Source: an uncultured Prevotellaceae bacterium (lineage in GTDB: Bacteria > Bacteroidota > Bacteroidia > Bacteroidales > Bacteroidaceae). Taken from it: a stretch of 64,000 bases of DNA. Shown here piece after piece: positions 2,181 to 61,747 of the stretch. The notes below the pieces were generated by a model. It was not told the origin of the DNA and searched no databases. It worked only from the letters and a program-made list of their open reading frames with translations. A program made the translations under genes and the position numbers. Location: NCBI GenBank assembly GCA_902774815.1, contig CACYJV010000004.1:57172-121171 (forward strand). The letters are read 5' to 3'. Within the stretch, counting starts at the first letter, position 1. Each line of letters starts with the position of its first letter.

Positions 2181-2703
2181 ATAGTTGATAGTTGACAGTT
2201 GAAAGTTGATAGTTATGATTACTATTCGTGATAGTACCGCCTTTGGCGCTACTACTATATCGATTAAATCATATAATACCCATATTCTTCTTTTTGGTCT
2301 TGATGATACTAGTGAGAATCTTTATGATTTCAATGTTGTCGGCCTCCATAGAGTAGAACTGCTTGTTCGTAAGGTAGCCTCCCGTGTACAATTTCTTTAA
2401 CCAGTAAAGTGTTTCATCGGCTTCTTTAAGTGCAATTGACAGTTTGCTAACAAAGTCGGCATCGCTCTGAGCATTCTGGCTTTCCGTGATATTGGCCCCT
2501 ATGCTTGTGCCGCTGCGATAGACCTGTTTTGCCATAATGGTCTCAATATTCCCATTGACAAGATACTTATACATCAGCACTATCCTGTCGGTGAAACAAT
2601 CGGCTTTTATCTCTATAAGGGATCTTCTTCTAGGCAATACCATTATCCACCGCTGCTAAGAGTAATCACAACTATCAACTTTCAACTCTCAACTGTCAAC
2701 TGT
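2181..2703. mobile_element. Inverted heptad-repeat cassette enclosing a four-helix-bundle gene
   Basis: Arms 2181-2223 and 2661-2703 are 43 bp each and match as reverse complements at 39 of 43 positions. Most mismatches would be G-U pairs in RNA. Each arm is made of degenerate 7-bp units (GTTGANA-like) ending inward in a TGATTACT motif. The arms enclose a single gene at 2269-2643. The right arm ends directly at the stop codon of the DUF59 gene and the left arm stops 6 bp before the lpxH ATG, so the cassette fills the gap exactly. In RNA it would form a long stem with the gene in the loop, as in 23S rRNA intervening sequences that carry related genes. Mobility is inferred: no transposase and no target-site duplication are visible. 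A smaller hairpin lies at 2232-2254. Confidence 0.5.
2269..2643 (-). CDS. Four helix bundle protein (S23 / 23S rRNA-intervening-sequence family)
   Basis: A 124-residue, all-helical small protein. The signature RSGTSIGANITES is at about residues 43-55, followed by the helix-rich DFVSKLSIALKEADETLYWLK region and a lysine-rich tail. This matches the four helix bundle family first found inside 23S rRNA intervening sequences and related to the accessory protein Avd of diversity-generating retroelements. No reverse transcriptase or rRNA lies nearby, so neither context applies here. The function of free-standing members is unknown to me. The gene is enclosed by inverted heptad repeats and may be the protein partner of that repeat family. 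Confidence 0.85.
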   Translation of the reverse strand: MVLPRRRSLIEIKADCFTDRIVLMYKYLVNGNIETIMAKQVYRSGTSIGANITESQNAQSDADFVSKLSIALKEADETLYWLKKLYTGGYLTNKQFYSMEADNIEIIKILTSIIKTKKKNMGII

Positions 2704-3024
2704 TCATTCGAACCCCAGTTCCACGCGTGCCTCTTCGGACATCATAGACTGGTCCCAGGCAGGTTCGAACACGAGGTTGACAGTACAGCCCTTCACCCCC
2801 TCAAGTGCATCCACTTTCTGGCGGACATCCTCCAGGATGAAGTCGGCAGCCGGACAGGAGGGAGCCGTGAAAGTCATGTCAATCTCCACTTCGCCGTCGT
2901 CCTTTACCTCTATGCGATAGATGAGTCCAAGCTCATAGATGTCAACGGGAATCTCAGGATCGTAGACGGTTTTCAGCACGTCAACAATCCGTTCTTCAAT
3001 CCAAATTTTCTCGGTTTGTTCCAT
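2704..3024 (-). CDS. DUF59 / MIP18-type Fe-S cluster assembly protein (SufT-like)
   Basis: A 106-residue single-domain DUF59 protein. DPEIPVDIYELGLIY is in the N-terminal half, and TAPSCPAADF contains the conserved cysteine expected in this family, which helps deliver or mature Fe-S clusters in the cytosol. I start at 3024 (MEQTEK), not at an in-frame upstream codon at 3063, because a strong -7 element (TATCTTTG, 3034-3041) lies within that longer reading frame. The transcript leader would be nearly absent. No other suf genes are in the window. The stop codon abuts the right arm of the four-helix-bundle cassette. Confidence 0.85.
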   Translation of the reverse strand: MEQTEKIWIEERIVDVLKTVYDPEIPVDIYELGLIYRIEVKDDGEVEIDMTFTAPSCPAADFILEDVRQKVDALEGVKGCTVNLVFEPAWDQSMMSEEARVELGFE

Positions 3025-3033
3025 ATATGTCTG

Positions 3034-3064
3034 CAAAGATAATGGAATTTGAAGACAACACAAA
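3034..3064 (-). promoter_or_regulatory. Bacteroidales-type promoter of the DUF59 gene
   Basis: Read on the minus strand, TTTG at 3061-3064 is followed after exactly 19 bp by TATCTTTG at 3034-3041, matching the Bacteroidales consensus of TTTG and TAnnTTTG. The ATG begins about 9 bp beyond the -7 element, so the message is close to leaderless. Confidence 0.75.
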
Positions 3065-3070
3065 ATTTTT

Positions 3071-3196
3071 TAATTGATAATTGACAATTGATAATTGACA
3101 GTTATGATTACCTTATTCCTTTTGCGGTTTCCACAGACAGGCCAAGCAGACAAGGGAAATCATAATTATCAATTATCAATTTTCAATTATTAATTT
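3071..3196. repeat. Inverted heptad-repeat pair without a gene (empty cassette)
   Basis: Arms 3071-3110 and 3157-3196 match as reverse complements at about 34 of 40 positions. They use the same 7-bp repeat logic (ATTGATA units) and the same inner TTATGATT motif as the cassette at 2181-2703. The 46 bp between them contains no reading frame. The right arm includes the stop codon of the sugar kinase gene at 3190-3192. This may be an empty or deleted form of the gene-carrying cassette. Confidence 0.6.
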
Positions 3197-4882: not shown

Positions 4883-5057
4883 TGTTCTTTTAACTTTTTA
4901 ATTGTTGAATAATGTTACGACGGAAGCCTATGGGTCTTGCGCTTCTGAGGGCTGCCCTGAGCCGGCGGCGAACCGCCTTTCGTCACCATTTTCTCGCCGT
5001 CTGGCGGTTAGCGATAGCGCATCGCTGCGCAGATGACAAATTCCTGTTGATTGAAAG

Positions 5058-5129
5058 TAGTCCCTAGGAGAGTCGAACTCCTCTTTAGAGAATGAAAATC
5101 TCTCGTCCTAACCGATAGACGAAGGGACC
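5058..5129 (-). tRNA. tRNA-Glu (anticodon TTC)
   Basis: The minus strand folds as a 72-nt cloverleaf. The acceptor stem is GGTCCCT with AGGGACT, the D-arm has TCGGTTAGG, the anticodon stem is AGAGA/TCTCT around the loop TTTTCAT, and the T-arm is AGGAG-TTCGACT-CTCCT. Anticodon TTC reads GAA and GAG. No CCA is encoded. One G-U pair closes the acceptor stem. Confidence 0.95.
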
Positions 5130-5229: not shown

Positions 5230-5537
5230 GCACTTTTTCGCCCCTCTACCTTTGCTTTTTCGCGCACGTACCATACCTTTTCGCGCAGGAACCATTGCTT
5301 TTTTTGCCGAAAGACCATTGCTTTGCAGGCAAGTACGCAATGCTTTGTCGCCGACAACTCAATGCTTTCTCGCCCATAAACCAATGCTTTCGAGTCAACA
5401 ACTCAATGCTTCGTCGCTTACAAAGCAATGACCCGCAGTCTGCAAAGCATAGCTCTATACCCCTATAAAGCTATGCTTCTTATCGTACAAAGCTATGGGT
5501 CTTGCAGCATAAAGCTATCCTTTGTTCGCTCCGAGGT
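5230..5537. repeat. 22-bp phased dyad array A
   Basis: About 14 consecutive units, nearly all exactly 22 bp, each beginning ATTGCTTT, AATGCTTT or a variant and often ending AAAGC, so unit junctions form the dyad AAAGCWWWGCTTT. Exceptions are units of 21 bp at 5230-5250 and 5273-5293, one of 23 bp at 5294-5316, and the 23-bp unit 5449-5471 containing TATACCCCT, which is followed by exactly three more units. That 23-bp unit and the next one form a 15-bp stem with a CCCC loop (14 of 15 paired). The units are not identical, so this is neither a CRISPR nor a simple tandem duplication. It lies upstream of tRNA-Glu. Confidence 0.85.
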
Positions 5538-6319: not shown

Positions 6320-9300
6320 TCAATTCACGTACACTTTCTTTACCTTGCCGTTACGCATGCGCACGATGTTGATGCCGCGCCCAAGCTGCTGGCGCTCGAT
6401 GCCGTTCACGTCGTAGATGCGGTCAATGCTCCCGTCGTCGGCTCCACCAGTCTGGATGCCCTCGATGGCGGTGGCGTCGAACTCCACAATCTGTTTGAAA
6501 TTTTTCCAGCCGTAGGCTTCACGGTAGGCATCAGCACAGCCCTCAGGCACATGAATCACGCAATTATACTTATTGACATAGAAGAACTGGGATACTCCCT
6601 CACTATAGGCCTCTCCATAATCATTCCTCTTAAAGTAGTCAGCCGGATCCACCACGGGAGGATCCTCGCTGTAGCAATAAATTTTACCCAGGGGATAATC
6701 ATAGTCAAAGAATGCACCATAGTAGATGCTTGTCACAGGGCAGATCCGTCCGCCGATAGTCACCTCTTTCTGTATTGAAAACTCCTTAGCATCCCAGTCG
6801 ACAGCATCACATACTTCTGCCGTGCCATCGTCCTTCAGTCTGTAGCCAATACCATCAATCTCTACATCATAAGGCTCCACGATACGATAGAAATTCCGCC
6901 AACCAGAGGTATTGCGATATGCTCTCTCAGCCCCTTGAGGAACATGAAGAACCAGACGCACCTTGCGCCTCAACCCTTCATCAAATGAATAAGGGAATAC
7001 ATTATCGGAATAATACCCACCATATTCAAAAGGCTCTACTTGATCAATCCAAACATCTTTCAAATGATAATTTTCATTGAAAACACCATCACCCAGCATT
7101 TTCAGAGACTTAGGAAGGTAAATAGTCTTTAATCCACTACTGCGGAATGCCCACGTATCGATAGCCTCAACTCCTTCAGGGACTATTAGCGTTTGGAGGT
7201 TTTGAGTATAAGAAAATGCACTGAGTGGGATGATTTTTAGGCTATGAGAAAGGACCAATTCAGTCATATTAAAACAGTCACTAAAGGCCCCTTCACCCAA
7301 TTCCTCTAATCCTTCAGGCAAAATAACAGACTCCAGTTCGCTACAATGTTTGAATGCCCAATTACCAATTTTCTTCAATGTCTTTGGGAACGTTACTTGG
7401 CGGAGATTGGAACACTCACGGAACGCAGCTCCCCCAATTGTCTGCAGGCCCTCAGGCAGCACCACTGTCTCCAGCTTCTTATCATACATAAACACATTAG
7501 CACCGATTTCCTTCAACGTATTAGGGAACGTTACTTGGCGGAGATTGGAACACTCACGGAACGCAGCTTCCCCAATTGTCTGCAGGCCCTCAGGCAGCAC
7601 CACCGTCTCCAGTTTCTTATCATACATAAACACTTTAGCACCGATTTCCTTCAACGTATTAGGGAACGTTACTTGGCGGAGATTGGAACACTCACGGAAC
7701 GCAGCTTCCCCTATCGACAGCAGGCCCTCAGGCAGCACCACCGTCTCCAGCTCCTTGAACTCTTTGAACACATCAGCGCCGATACTCGTCACCTTGTACT
7801 CGACATCGTTCAGCGTGTATGTGCCCGGCACCACGAGGTTGGCCTCCAATTGGCAGGTATCTGCTTTATAGAGCCTTGCCGTTTTATCCTCATTTAAGAG
7901 ATATGTGTAGATGCCATCTGACACTCTACCCGGGTCGAAGACGTTCTTAAACCTGCACCAATCTGCCTGTCCCATATACAGTTCAGTCAGACCCTTGGGT
8001 ATCGATAGCACGGCATTGCTATACACCTCGGCATCAAAAGCTCCGGTATATCCGTCCGTCGGAATCACAGGACACGAAGCCTTCATCTTTGCATTGACTG
8101 ACTTTATGCCTTTGCAGCCATCGAAAGCACCACCGGAGATACTGGTCAATGATTCCGGCAGCTCGACCGACTCCAAATTAGTGCAATTCCCAAAAGCTTT
8201 ATAGCCAATGTTTTTTATTTGCTCTGGGAAACTGACGGTCCGAATGTTCTTGCAGTTCGTAAATAGGTTGTTGTTAACGGTCTCAACACCTGCAGGTATC
8301 TGCAAGTCGACAATCTCCTGATCGTTTTCATAGAGTGAACTCTCTTGAATATAAAGATCTCCGGCCGTCAGTCGGCAGAACGACGCCAGATCGGCAACAT
8401 GCAGATTGGCACTGCTACTGAAAAACGCAGCCTCCCCAATTCTGGAGAGACTTTTGGGCAGCCAGATGTCTTTCAAATCCTTACAATTATAAAAAGCTAA
8501 ACGGCCAATGGAAGTCAGGCCTTCCGGGAGTTTCAAAGTGCGGATGTTAAATCCCGCATATATGCAATCTGTGATGGAAGTGATGTCGTCGGGCAACTCC
8601 CAGTCGACGATTTCTTCACCGTTGAGCATTAAGTGTAAAGGAATTTCGTTGATGCCATAATGGGTAAAGTCGTGTTGAATCTTCATATGCCAGAATGCTG
8701 ACAAATCCTTCACGTGGACCGATAGTTCGTCCATACCGCAGAAAGCTGCTGCTCCAACTTCTTTCAGCGATGTGGGAAGGTAAACATCTCTAACAAAAAG
8801 ACACTCCCCAAATGCACCCTCACCAACGACCGTGACACCTTCAGGAATCGTCACACTCTTGAGACTCAGACTCCAAGAGAAAGTGAAGTCTTTAATGGTA
8901 TCAACCTCTTCAGGAATGACCAGGTCGGTCAGCAGTTCGTCGTTGAGGTAAAGATAATGCTCTAAAAATAATGGCTCGACCTTAATCTTATCACTATAGC
9001 CATTCACTGCAGCGATGATGCACTTACGGTCAATCTTGCAATAGGCTGCCAGGTCGGTAATATACAGATTCTTGCAGATATTCTCATAAATCTTATATGG
9101 GGTTGGGCTAATGGCCATCGCGTATATCGTCTCGATCGTGCTGGGAAGATGCAGGTCACGGGTGCAGACAACACAACCTTCAGCACCCGAAAAGGCCAGC
9201 GAGTCGATGCCTGCCACTCGATAGCCATTCACCTCGGACGGAATGGTCAGCACCGGGCAGAGTTCGTATGTCGCAGTTTGCACGGTGTCGGCTGCGACAA

Positions 9301-9475
9301 AAGCATGAGTGGCAACGAAGCAACGTTTCTCGGCCTCGCTGTCGACACGGAAGCGCATGTCGATGCCTTCCACGGTCTGGGCTACAAACACGTCGCCATC
9401 GTCGGCAAACGACGTCATCGGAAGCCATGAGGCAACCATCATCAGGGCTGAAATCATCAAAGTCTTTTTCATCAT
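6320..9475 (-). CDS. BspA-like leucine-rich-repeat surface protein
   Basis: A 1051-residue secreted protein. It has a signal peptide of about 25 residues, then many LRR_5 (BspA/TpLRR) repeats of the form LPEGLxxIGxxAFxxCxxL from about residue 180 to 800, and a C-terminal tail with YDVNGIERQ, GRGINIVRM and KVKKVYVN like the sorting tails of Prevotella surface proteins. Family members act in adhesion at the cell surface; no ligand can be predicted. Three 46-residue blocks near the middle are almost identical (DNA 7391-7756). A second tail region includes GWKNF and GWRNF segments typical of these proteins. The promoter is at 9502-9533. Confidence 0.9.
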   Translation of the reverse strand: MMKKTLMISALMMVASWLPMTSFADDGDVFVAQTVEGIDMRFRVDSEAEKRCFVATHAFVAADTVQTATYELCPVLTIPSEVNGYRVAGIDSLAFSGAEGCVVCTRDLHLPSTIETIYAMAISPTPYKIYENICKNLYITDLAAYCKIDRKCIIAAVNGYSDKIKVEPLFLEHYLYLNDELLTDLVIPEEVDTIKDFTFSWSLSLKSVTIPEGVTVVGEGAFGECLFVRDVYLPTSLKEVGAAAFCGMDELSVHVKDLSAFWHMKIQHDFTHYGINEIPLHLMLNGEEIVDWELPDDITSITDCIYAGFNIRTLKLPEGLTSIGRLAFYNCKDLKDIWLPKSLSRIGEAAFFSSSANLHVADLASFCRLTAGDLYIQESSLYENDQEIVDLQIPAGVETVNNNLFTNCKNIRTVSFPEQIKNIGYKAFGNCTNLESVELPESLTSISGGAFDGCKGIKSVNAKMKASCPVIPTDGYTGAFDAEVYSNAVLSIPKGLTELYMGQADWCRFKNVFDPGRVSDGIYTYLLNEDKTARLYKADTCQLEANLVVPGTYTLNDVEYKVTSIGADVFKEFKELETVVLPEGLLSIGEAAFRECSNLRQVTFPNTLKEIGAKVFMYDKKLETVVLPEGLQTIGEAAFRECSNLRQVTFPNTLKEIGANVFMYDKKLETVVLPEGLQTIGGAAFRECSNLRQVTFPKTLKKIGNWAFKHCSELESVILPEGLEELGEGAFSDCFNMTELVLSHSLKIIPLSAFSYTQNLQTLIVPEGVEAIDTWAFRSSGLKTIYLPKSLKMLGDGVFNENYHLKDVWIDQVEPFEYGGYYSDNVFPYSFDEGLRRKVRLVLHVPQGAERAYRNTSGWRNFYRIVEPYDVEIDGIGYRLKDDGTAEVCDAVDWDAKEFSIQKEVTIGGRICPVTSIYYGAFFDYDYPLGKIYCYSEDPPVVDPADYFKRNDYGEAYSEGVSQFFYVNKYNCVIHVPEGCADAYREAYGWKNFKQIVEFDATAIEGIQTGGADDGSIDRIYDVNGIERQQLGRGINIVRMRNGKVKKVYVN
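7391..7756. repeat. Three near-identical 138-bp repeats in the BspA-like gene
   Basis: The marker CGTTACTTGG recurs at 7391, 7529 and 7667, exactly 138 bp apart, and the sequence between copies is nearly identical at DNA level. Each copy encodes 46 residues (two LRR units). Such identity implies recent duplication or gene conversion, and copy number could change by recombination without shifting the frame. Confidence 0.9.
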
Positions 9476-33791: not shown

Positions 33792-33823
33792 GCCCATTGT
33801 CTTACTTTCCTCGTCATTTCCAT

Positions 33824-33860
33824 AGCATTGCTTCGTCACAAAAGAAGCAATGCTTTTTTG
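33824..33860 (+). terminator. Intrinsic terminator of glsAB formed by array B units
   Basis: AGCATTGCTT (33824-33833) and AAGCAATGCT (33845-33854) form a perfect 10-bp stem with an 11-nt loop, followed by a run of Ts. The stem arms are the first two dyads of the 22-bp array. Confidence 0.85.
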
Positions 33861-34047
33861 TTTATAACGCTTTGCTTTTTTACTTACAAAGCATAGCTTT
33901 GCCTGTTATATCTCATTGCTTTGACAGTTACAGAGCAATGCTTTTATGATTCTAAAGCATAGCTCTATACCCCTATAAAGCATTGCTTTATATCGCACAA
34001 AGCATATAGTCATAGCATATAAAGCAATACTTTGTTCTGTAGATGAG
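33827..34047. repeat. 22-bp phased dyad array B
   Basis: Ten units: nine of exactly 22 bp and one of 23 bp at 33959-33981, which is identical to the 23-bp unit of array A (5449-5471). Three units follow it, the last reading AATACTTTGTTC. Junctions give AAAGC-WWW-GCTTT with the middle triplet ATT, AAT or ATA. The array lies between convergent genes. Confidence 0.9.
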
Positions 34048-46951: not shown

Positions 46952-47172
46952 ATTGACTTTTCGCTGCTATAGCATAGACTTGATGCTGACAAAGCAATGA
47001 CTTACAACCTCCAAATCAATGCTTTACTACCTCCAAAGCATTGCTTTACAACATCTAAAGCATTGACTTACCACCTCTAAAGCATAGCTTTATACCCCTG
47101 CAAAGCATAGCTTCATAGCATATAGAGCATTGCCCCGCTGCCTATAGAGCAATGCTTTGTCGACCCAAAAGT
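46952..47172. repeat. 22-bp phased dyad array C
   Basis: Ten units: nine of exactly 22 bp and one of 23 bp at 47084-47106 (contains TATACCCCT), followed by three units, the last starting AATGCTTTGTC. Two adjacent dyads at about 47013-47047 pair over 12 of 13 bp. The array lies between convergent CYTH and VanZ genes and has the same polarity and end order as arrays A and B. Confidence 0.9.
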
Positions 47173-61483: not shown

Positions 61484-61747
61484 ATGTTTCGTGTTCTTTG
61501 AAAGCATAGGGATGACTCTTCAAACCCATAGTTTTCGCCCTGCTAAAGCAATGCTTTTGGTGTCTCAAAGCATTGCTTTTGCGGGATGAAAGCTATGGGA
61601 TTGAAGGGCGAAAGCAGCCCTTTAGAGGATCGATTGCATCGGGTTCACGGAACTTTACGATAGCAAAAAGATCTTTTCACTACAGCAAAAAACTCATTTG
61701 ACTATAGTAAAAAGATCTTTTGACCTTAGTAAAGCACTAAGAAAGGC
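61484..61747. repeat. 22-bp phased array D
   Basis: Twelve consecutive units of exactly 22 bp (264 bp), ending 8 bp from the gyrB stop codon. Units 1-6 follow the AAAGCWWWGCTTT dyad; units 9-11 use another theme (TAGCAAAAAGATCTTTTCAC, a dyad AAAAAGATCTTTT) with the same period. Dyads at about 61546-61580 form a 13-bp perfect stem. The 23-bp TATACCCCT unit is absent. It fills most of the 403-bp gap between GH95 and gyrB; the rest shows nothing recognisable. Confidence 0.85.

Follow-up and report, generated by a model that had tools for sequence, protein, structure and literature searches.

The window analysed here, a 64-kb stretch of DNA from an uncultured Prevotellaceae bacterium, contains four intergenic arrays of short dyads repeated with a pitch of 22 bp; the arrays as such are not assigned a strand. 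Array A (5246..5523) comprises about 13 units, some of them degenerate, and is located upstream of a tRNA-Glu gene (5057-5129, minus strand). Its core, GCTCTATACCCCTATAAAGC, contains a 23-bp step and lies at 5452..5471 on the plus strand. Array B (33822..34033, 10 units) and array C (46952..47158, 9-10 units) are both flanked by convergent genes, and their cores are found on the plus strand at 33962..33981 and 47087..47106, respectively. The first two units of array B (33824..33860, plus strand) are computed to fold into a hairpin of 11 bp with a T run behind it, which could function as a terminator. Array D lies downstream of gyrB (minus strand). It was initially annotated as a single array, and in fact consists of a main part of six AAAGC-type dyads (61501..61623), a break, and a second part (61660..61724) of about three 22-bp units with a different palindrome of the AAAAGATCTTTT type.

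The self-identity at lag 22 is 0.53 for array A, 0.51 for B, 0.62 for C and 0.54 for D, compared with a mean of 0.26-0.28 in dinucleotide shuffles (2000 per array). At lags 22 and 44 the observed value exceeds that of every shuffle, and at lag 66 it is reached by a single shuffle, of array B; at other lags between 12 and 59 the self-identity of the arrays is at most 0.31-0.35. The initial annotation had reported four arrays and named shuffled sequence of comparable periodicity as the outcome that would speak against them; the arrays are present and beyond chance, and shuffling does not give the period. In a search of the window with Rfam at the gathering score the tRNA was the sole match, and the arrays match no known RNA family. 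Repeats of other kinds in the window include a 138-bp tandem repeat (7364-7756, 2.8 copies) within a gene for a BspA-type leucine-rich-repeat protein (6320-9475, minus strand) and several AT-rich tandem repeats of 7 and 14 bp between small reading frames (2181-3195).

Array anatomy across the genome

The arrays are not limited to the four sites originally described. The pattern GCWWWGC-N15-GCWWWGC occurs 163 times in the 3.67-Mb genome of the window (G000), and its reversed control four times. In 456 kb of this genome we counted 19 intergenic sites at lag 22, 20 at lag 44 and 15 at lag 66, the next highest of lags 8-69 being lag 21 with seven; a detector based on lags 22 and 44 marked 25 intergenic regions in the same DNA, a few of which are not array-like.

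The 39 arrays collected from G000 contain 315 units. Steps between units are mostly of 22 bp (236 of 22, 34 of 23 and 6 of 21 bp), and within dyads the inner C and G are kept in 96% and 94% of units and the remaining arm positions in 72-89%, with a weak base bias in the spacers; both the step counts and the dyad conservation are somewhat flattered, because the chaining favours steps of 22 bp and the units were selected for their match to the dyad. The register, first described as almost unbroken, is thus dominated by 22 bp, but arrays A, B and C each have one 23-bp step, located at the conserved core GCTYTATACCCCTATAAAGC, and array A has additional irregular steps around 5246-5312. In the junction AAAGC-WWW-GCTTT the inner C and G are kept best, and many units have only one good arm. 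The dyad centres are almost always AAT, ATT, ATA or TAT, so that one GCAT half is kept at each such site. Neighbouring units are 75% identical in their dyads and 45% in their spacers. The spacers therefore drift, as had been proposed, but are not entirely free to vary, random G000 spacers being 30% identical.

Fifteen G000 arrays share the core GCTYTATACCCCTATAAAGC (with at most three mismatches) and an arrangement in which some seven units stand left of the core and about three right of it. In most units of these arrays the arm that faces the core is better kept. The right arm is better kept to the left of the core, and the left arm is better kept in two of the three first units to its right. 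Pairs of G000 arrays reach 81% identity over 155 bp with spacers included, which indicates that the arrays are, or were, copied. Gaps between convergent genes are enriched among array-containing gaps (25/80, against 131/963 of other gaps; OR 2.9); here and in the other scripted counts, genes were called with a crude ORF caller. A search of plasmid and phage records for resemblance to array B gave no match. Elsewhere in G000, about eight near-identical 22-bp units of another motif, TTTACAGGGCGTAAAGCAGTCA, are found at L039:6355-6650, and look like a young expansion.

Distribution and constraint of the 22-bp pitch

Confinement of the arrays to one strain, without conservation, was the other outcome that the initial annotation had named against them; it is contradicted by the recurrence of the period in the genus. 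In all eight genomes of the genus from which at least 80 kb was sampled (G000, G076, G084, G132, G016, G024, G061 and G122), a motif-free scan identifies 22 or 44 as the top intergenic lag, lag 22 being tied with lag 41 in G076. Sites at lag 22 numbered seven in G016, three in G024, seven in G061 and five in G122, and eight in G319, which belongs to another genus of the family. The nearest named organisms of loci fetched through gyrB are Prevotella, including P. communis E15-14. Seventeen Prevotella-type loci contain 12 sites at lag 22, six at lag 44 and 0-3 at other lags; 20 random stretches from the genus contain 14, 12 and 0-5, respectively. Lag 22 was found at one site in 12 other Bacteroidales loci, at four sites in 19 other Bacteroidota loci (other lags, 0-6) and at three sites in 32 further loci (other lags, 0-7), the last set being coarsely labelled as non-Bacteroidota and including four MAGs titled Bacteroidetes. 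Taxa outside the genus are thus mostly at background for lag 22; by eye, lone 22-bp palindromic arrays were also seen in Mediterranea massiliensis, Phocaeicola vulgatus and G161.

When dyad axes are scored without any requirement for sequence repetition, Prevotella has peaks at spacings of 22, 33 and 44 bp (38, 19 and 9 sites under the stricter threshold of the two used). At other spacings there are 0-3 sites, except for 41 bp with eight, and in the non-Prevotella sets, G319 included, there is no peak at 22, 33 or 44 bp. The AAAGC motif itself is present only in some genomes of the genus: the paired AAAGC pattern with at most two mismatches was found in one of 118 genomes of the phylum and two of 119 genomes of the order, with the window's own genome counted. 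The palindrome differs between genomes and between arrays, and the 22-bp pitch is constant.

Array positions are less stable. Array D is absent after gyrB in four relatives (L076, L080, L084 and L101) in which the gene order looks the same, the next gene being read by eye as the same GH95 gene, and in L081 an array of another motif follows gyrB. This indicates that positions turn over between distant species. Between the sister genomes G132 and G146, 11 orthologous arrays contain no gap columns and 76 substitutions in 1201 columns, against 418 substitutions and 237 gap columns in 6948 columns outside arrays; gaps were counted from 30 bp inside the array ends, which leaves out of the count one gap of about 22 bp that flanks the array at L028:7748. 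These 11 are from 18 G132 arrays; a further one, at L069:13806, has a match and is not itself a clear array, and the rest are without a full match in the DNA fetched. At six loci of this pair, substituted columns number 1/102 in dyad arms, 6/85 in centres and 15/187 in spacers (p=0.012), a comparison with a mild bias, since units entered it by virtue of a match to the arm in one genome or the other. The step counts, the better conservation of dyads than of spacers and the array lengths kept between sister genomes support the original suggestion that the spacing itself is under selection.

Arrays upstream of HU-HIG genes

The initial annotation had suggested looking for a DNA-binding protein, and a candidate family is the HU-HIG type of the HU superfamily (PF18291). 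Arrays are located less than 400 bp upstream of 21 of 37 HU-HIG genes. Among control genes they are found upstream of 35/523, of 33/232 with gaps of at least 150 bp and, as the stricter control, of 32/177 with gaps of at least 250 bp (HU-HIG against the latter, OR 5.9, p=4e-6). The genes in L070 and L260 that gave the lead were kept out of the 37, and those in L316 (contig end), L317 (ordinary HU) and L319 (short contig, with an array upstream) were excluded beforehand; one of the 21 arrays (L318) is a low-complexity AT-rich stretch. A motif-free lag scan of the same upstream regions detected lag 22 in 18 of the 37 HU-HIG cases (4 for the next best lag) and in 28 of the 177 controls. No 22-bp array was found upstream of the remaining 16 HU-HIG genes, array-positive genes being 0/5 in G061 and 1/3 in G016. 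In other Bacteroidales a 22-bp array precedes 6 of 19 HU-HIG genes, counted after removal of four ordinary-HU-like genes (L364, L365, L366 and L374); L368 (masked) and L373 (contig start) were also removed for the motif-free scan, which covered 17. In L326, L373, L376 and L305 the upstream arrays of HU-HIG genes seem to have a pitch of 23 or 24 bp, the former being the repeat length of BrickBuilt of Porphyromonas gingivalis.

A scan of viral contigs with the window's motif gave matches in three stretches of two contigs. One of them, L260 from the IMG/VR viral collection, has four AAAGCATAGCTTT dyads at 22 bp that end 38 bp before a HU-HIG gene (product P0001), and in G075 four variants of the window's motif precede a HU-HIG gene 79% identical to P0001. 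By eye, a similar reading frame lies upstream in the two cases (L260:6823-7494 and, for G075, L336:1328-1968), and the AAAGC array begins where this frame ends. The profile scores are 90.3 bits for P0001, 60.7 for the L070 gene and 76.5 for the L330 gene, all above the curated cut-off of 26.2, which places the three proteins in the HU-HIG family; compared by sequence with PDB chains, the HU-HIG partner protein gave no match. The window's genome has a P0001-like gene (55% identity over residues 78-153) at the end of a contig, which truncates the gene and leaves the region before it outside the assembly, and two other N-terminal HU-HIG pieces in G000 have no array upstream. HU-HIG pieces at the ends of G000 contigs C21, C22, C39 and C44 look as if repeated copies had broken the assembly.

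Different HU-HIG genes of one genome are preceded by different palindromes, which suggests one motif per paralogue. By eye, near-relative HU-HIG genes share a palindrome in G076 and G122 and in G132 and G016. The upstream arrays also resemble the dispersed arrays of their own genome, with 17/442 similar pairs within genomes and 18/2560 across genomes (p=2e-6). The best matches are from G076, G084, G137 and G132; in G137 the array before a HU-HIG gene, of the TAAGGAGACGGTCTCCTTA type, is 77% identical over 137 bp to a dispersed array. The relatives of P0001 in G137 (62% identity) and G118 (60%) are preceded by other palindromes, and the G065 relative has no array within 390 bp upstream, so that protein similarity alone does not name the motif. 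Among the matches listed for 150 genus genomes, proteins at least 50% identical to P0001 are found in seven genomes, and five of these (G000, G014, G047, G076 and G118) are among the nine AAAGC-rich genomes, defined by at least 12 pattern matches and at least five times the control. Identity to P0001 is not relied on as a tracker of the AAAGC motif, given the other palindromes in G137 and G118 and the possible close kinship of the genomes.

The number of HU-HIG matches per genome, ordinary HU included, is 4-23 in 16 genomes of the genus, 17 in G319 and 1-3 in five others. Copy number is a weak tracker of array density (four matches each in G000 and G012, eight in G291 of another family). Most arrays are not beside a HU-HIG gene: the 122 flanking proteins of up to 700 aa include at most one, and none in the families with two or more members. 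Among the families listed for these 122 proteins there is no recurrent one of note, gyrB being at the top because loci were fetched by gyrB.

Possible function and related repeats

We propose that the arrays are probably phased operator arrays for homodimeric HU-HIG proteins, the likeliest partner family judging from gene neighbourhood and shared motifs. Each dyad would be occupied by one HU-HIG dimer, and neighbouring dimers, 22 bp or about two turns of DNA apart, would be able to contact each other, so that the protein may coat the array, perhaps outward from the core where one is present. Each paralogue would recognise a palindrome of its own, and arrays of this palindrome, often present before the gene of the paralogue itself, could provide feedback control. 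One or a few palindromes per genome would have been dispersed to numerous intergenic positions, with convergent gaps used more than expected, and the protein bound in such gaps may act as a nucleoid, insulator or transcription-boundary element. We put forward more tentatively a wider scheme of several private address systems that would run side by side in Prevotella and its relatives, which has somewhat less than an even chance of being right. Here every HU-HIG paralogue would be sequence-specific, polymerise on a 22-bp array of its own palindrome and control itself; in each lineage one address would have spread between genes and would serve chromosome organisation or the insulation of transcription units. 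Between species, protein and palindrome would change together, with the 22-bp geometry unaltered. Against the proposed operator role, HU has been described as binding DNA without sequence specificity in the accessible text of PMC5683647. If the scheme is true, HU-superfamily proteins would include sequence-specific, self-addressed array binders, and the expanded HU-HIG proteins of Bacteroidales would acquire a DNA target and a testable function; the prediction is one protein, one palindrome, 22 bp apart.

It is unlikely that the palindromes work mainly at the RNA level, where they would form small hairpins in a row or bidirectional terminators and would end or protect mRNAs at the 3' ends of genes. 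The enrichment in convergent gaps and the terminator-like hairpin of array B are in line with such a role. Arrays A, B and C also fold better than shuffles on both strands (z from -2.5 to -6.8), which is expected under either reading since any palindromic array folds well. The tandem arrays of G000 alone have a sense-strand excess of G.T (50 vs 28, p=0.017), but 43 tandem-gap arrays have no sense-strand G.U preference beyond base skew (G.T:A.C 136:188, vs 1233:1650 at shifted axes). No covariation between arms or between neighbouring units was found in the 39 G000 arrays, and hairpins explain neither the fixed pitch nor the HU-HIG association. With dyads conserved, spacers drifting, and neither arm covariation nor a controlled G.U bias, DNA-level dimer sites fit better than RNA hairpins, and the evidence favours a two-fold symmetric protein on DNA. 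Thus, of the two readings offered by the initial annotation, we retain a protein that would bind along the DNA, with HU-HIG as the candidate family, and set aside hairpins as the main function.

The arrays could also be mainly selfish or neutral dispersed repeats, of the PINSR kind, spread by copying, with the HU-HIG link arising from long upstream regions or shared mobile elements. The common core and layout of the 15 G000 arrays, the array pairs of up to 81% identity, the absence of array D after gyrB in four relatives with apparently the same gene order, and the possibility that HU-HIG genes are carried by mobile DNA, L260 belonging to a viral collection, agree with this explanation. We regard it as improbable, because dyads are conserved against drifting spacers, the pitch is kept and the arms are constrained between sister species, and because the HU-HIG enrichment persists when the controls are restricted to genes whose gaps reach 250 bp; nor does copying alone explain one pitch common to many unrelated palindromes. 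There is also a slight chance that the arrays are read by a different family of homodimeric DNA-binding proteins, with HU-HIG genes simply as some of its targets, given that arrays precede 32 of the 177 other long-gap genes and that binding by HU-HIG is itself our inference. The flanking proteins are varied, with no recurrent DNA-binding family in the families listed besides gyrB, the fetch key, and the differing palindromes before HU-HIG genes of one genome point to one motif per paralogue, both of which speak against this explanation.

Several known systems differ from the arrays in their architecture. The iterons of R6K-type plasmid origins are 22-bp head-to-tail repeats, about two helical turns long, read by their own protein; the arrays are chromosomal, number dozens or more per genome and have palindromic units. 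CRISPR is rejected, since the array repeats diverge and are separated by 9-bp spacers, in contrast to near-identical repeats with long unique spacers. The REP sequences associated with RAYT are short dispersed palindromes, mostly intergenic (PMC3733652, accessible text), whereas the arrays keep a fixed pitch. A RAYT/REP origin was also rejected on the basis of the Y1 transposase (PF01797), which is missing from six array-rich genomes (G012, G017, G039, G084, G132 and G146); G000 has three PF01797 matches, and 11 of 23 genomes have one.

Among the closest known repeats is PINSR, a 188-bp intergenic repeat of the P. intermedia group with 177-184 copies, one of them downstream of tnaA (PMC4755523, accessible text). 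The intergenic element of G084 aligns over 187-210 bp, has 11 copies in the 129 kb compared (six in an unselected 100 kb), and one copy lies immediately after a gene that resembles tnaA (PF01212 match, 459 aa). The G084 arrays are very probably PINSR, as judged from position, length and abundance rather than from the published consensus. G017 has the same element, but none right after its tnaA-like gene, and the window's genome carries another sequence. PINSR is reported for one species group, and the accessible text of PMC4755523 does not describe 22-bp dyads, palindromes changing across the genus or HU-HIG. The HU-HIG proteins (PF18291) are found here with phased arrays of changing palindromes upstream. 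The proposed scheme, if true, would explain this anonymous Prevotella repeat.

BrickBuilt of Porphyromonas gingivalis, according to the accessible text of PMC4596501, resembles the arrays in being intergenic, in its 19 dispersed copies, in internal 23-nt tandem repeats of which some positions are conserved and others variable, and in predicted stem loops. It differs by its repeat length of 23 rather than 22 nt and by its leader, tail and terminal inverted repeats similar to those of IS5-family elements; an HU link is not described in that text, and it is by its description that BrickBuilt is set apart from the arrays. The part of the literature accessible to us on Prevotella and Bacteroidales intergenic repeats, PINSR, BrickBuilt and HU clades, mostly from outside subscription journals, gave no account of the 22-bp pitch or of an HU-HIG link, and nothing was found in it under the term HU-HIG. 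The initial view that no such element had been described is therefore only partly right: PINSR appears to be the version of one lineage and BrickBuilt has 23-nt repeats, but 22-bp dyads and the HU-HIG link are absent from the accessible descriptions of both. A second periodic class, with a pitch of 41-42 bp, is present in G076 (L056-L065, L020 and L022), with 13 intergenic lag-41 sites in L056-L065; 41-nt repeats are mentioned in the P. gingivalis literature.
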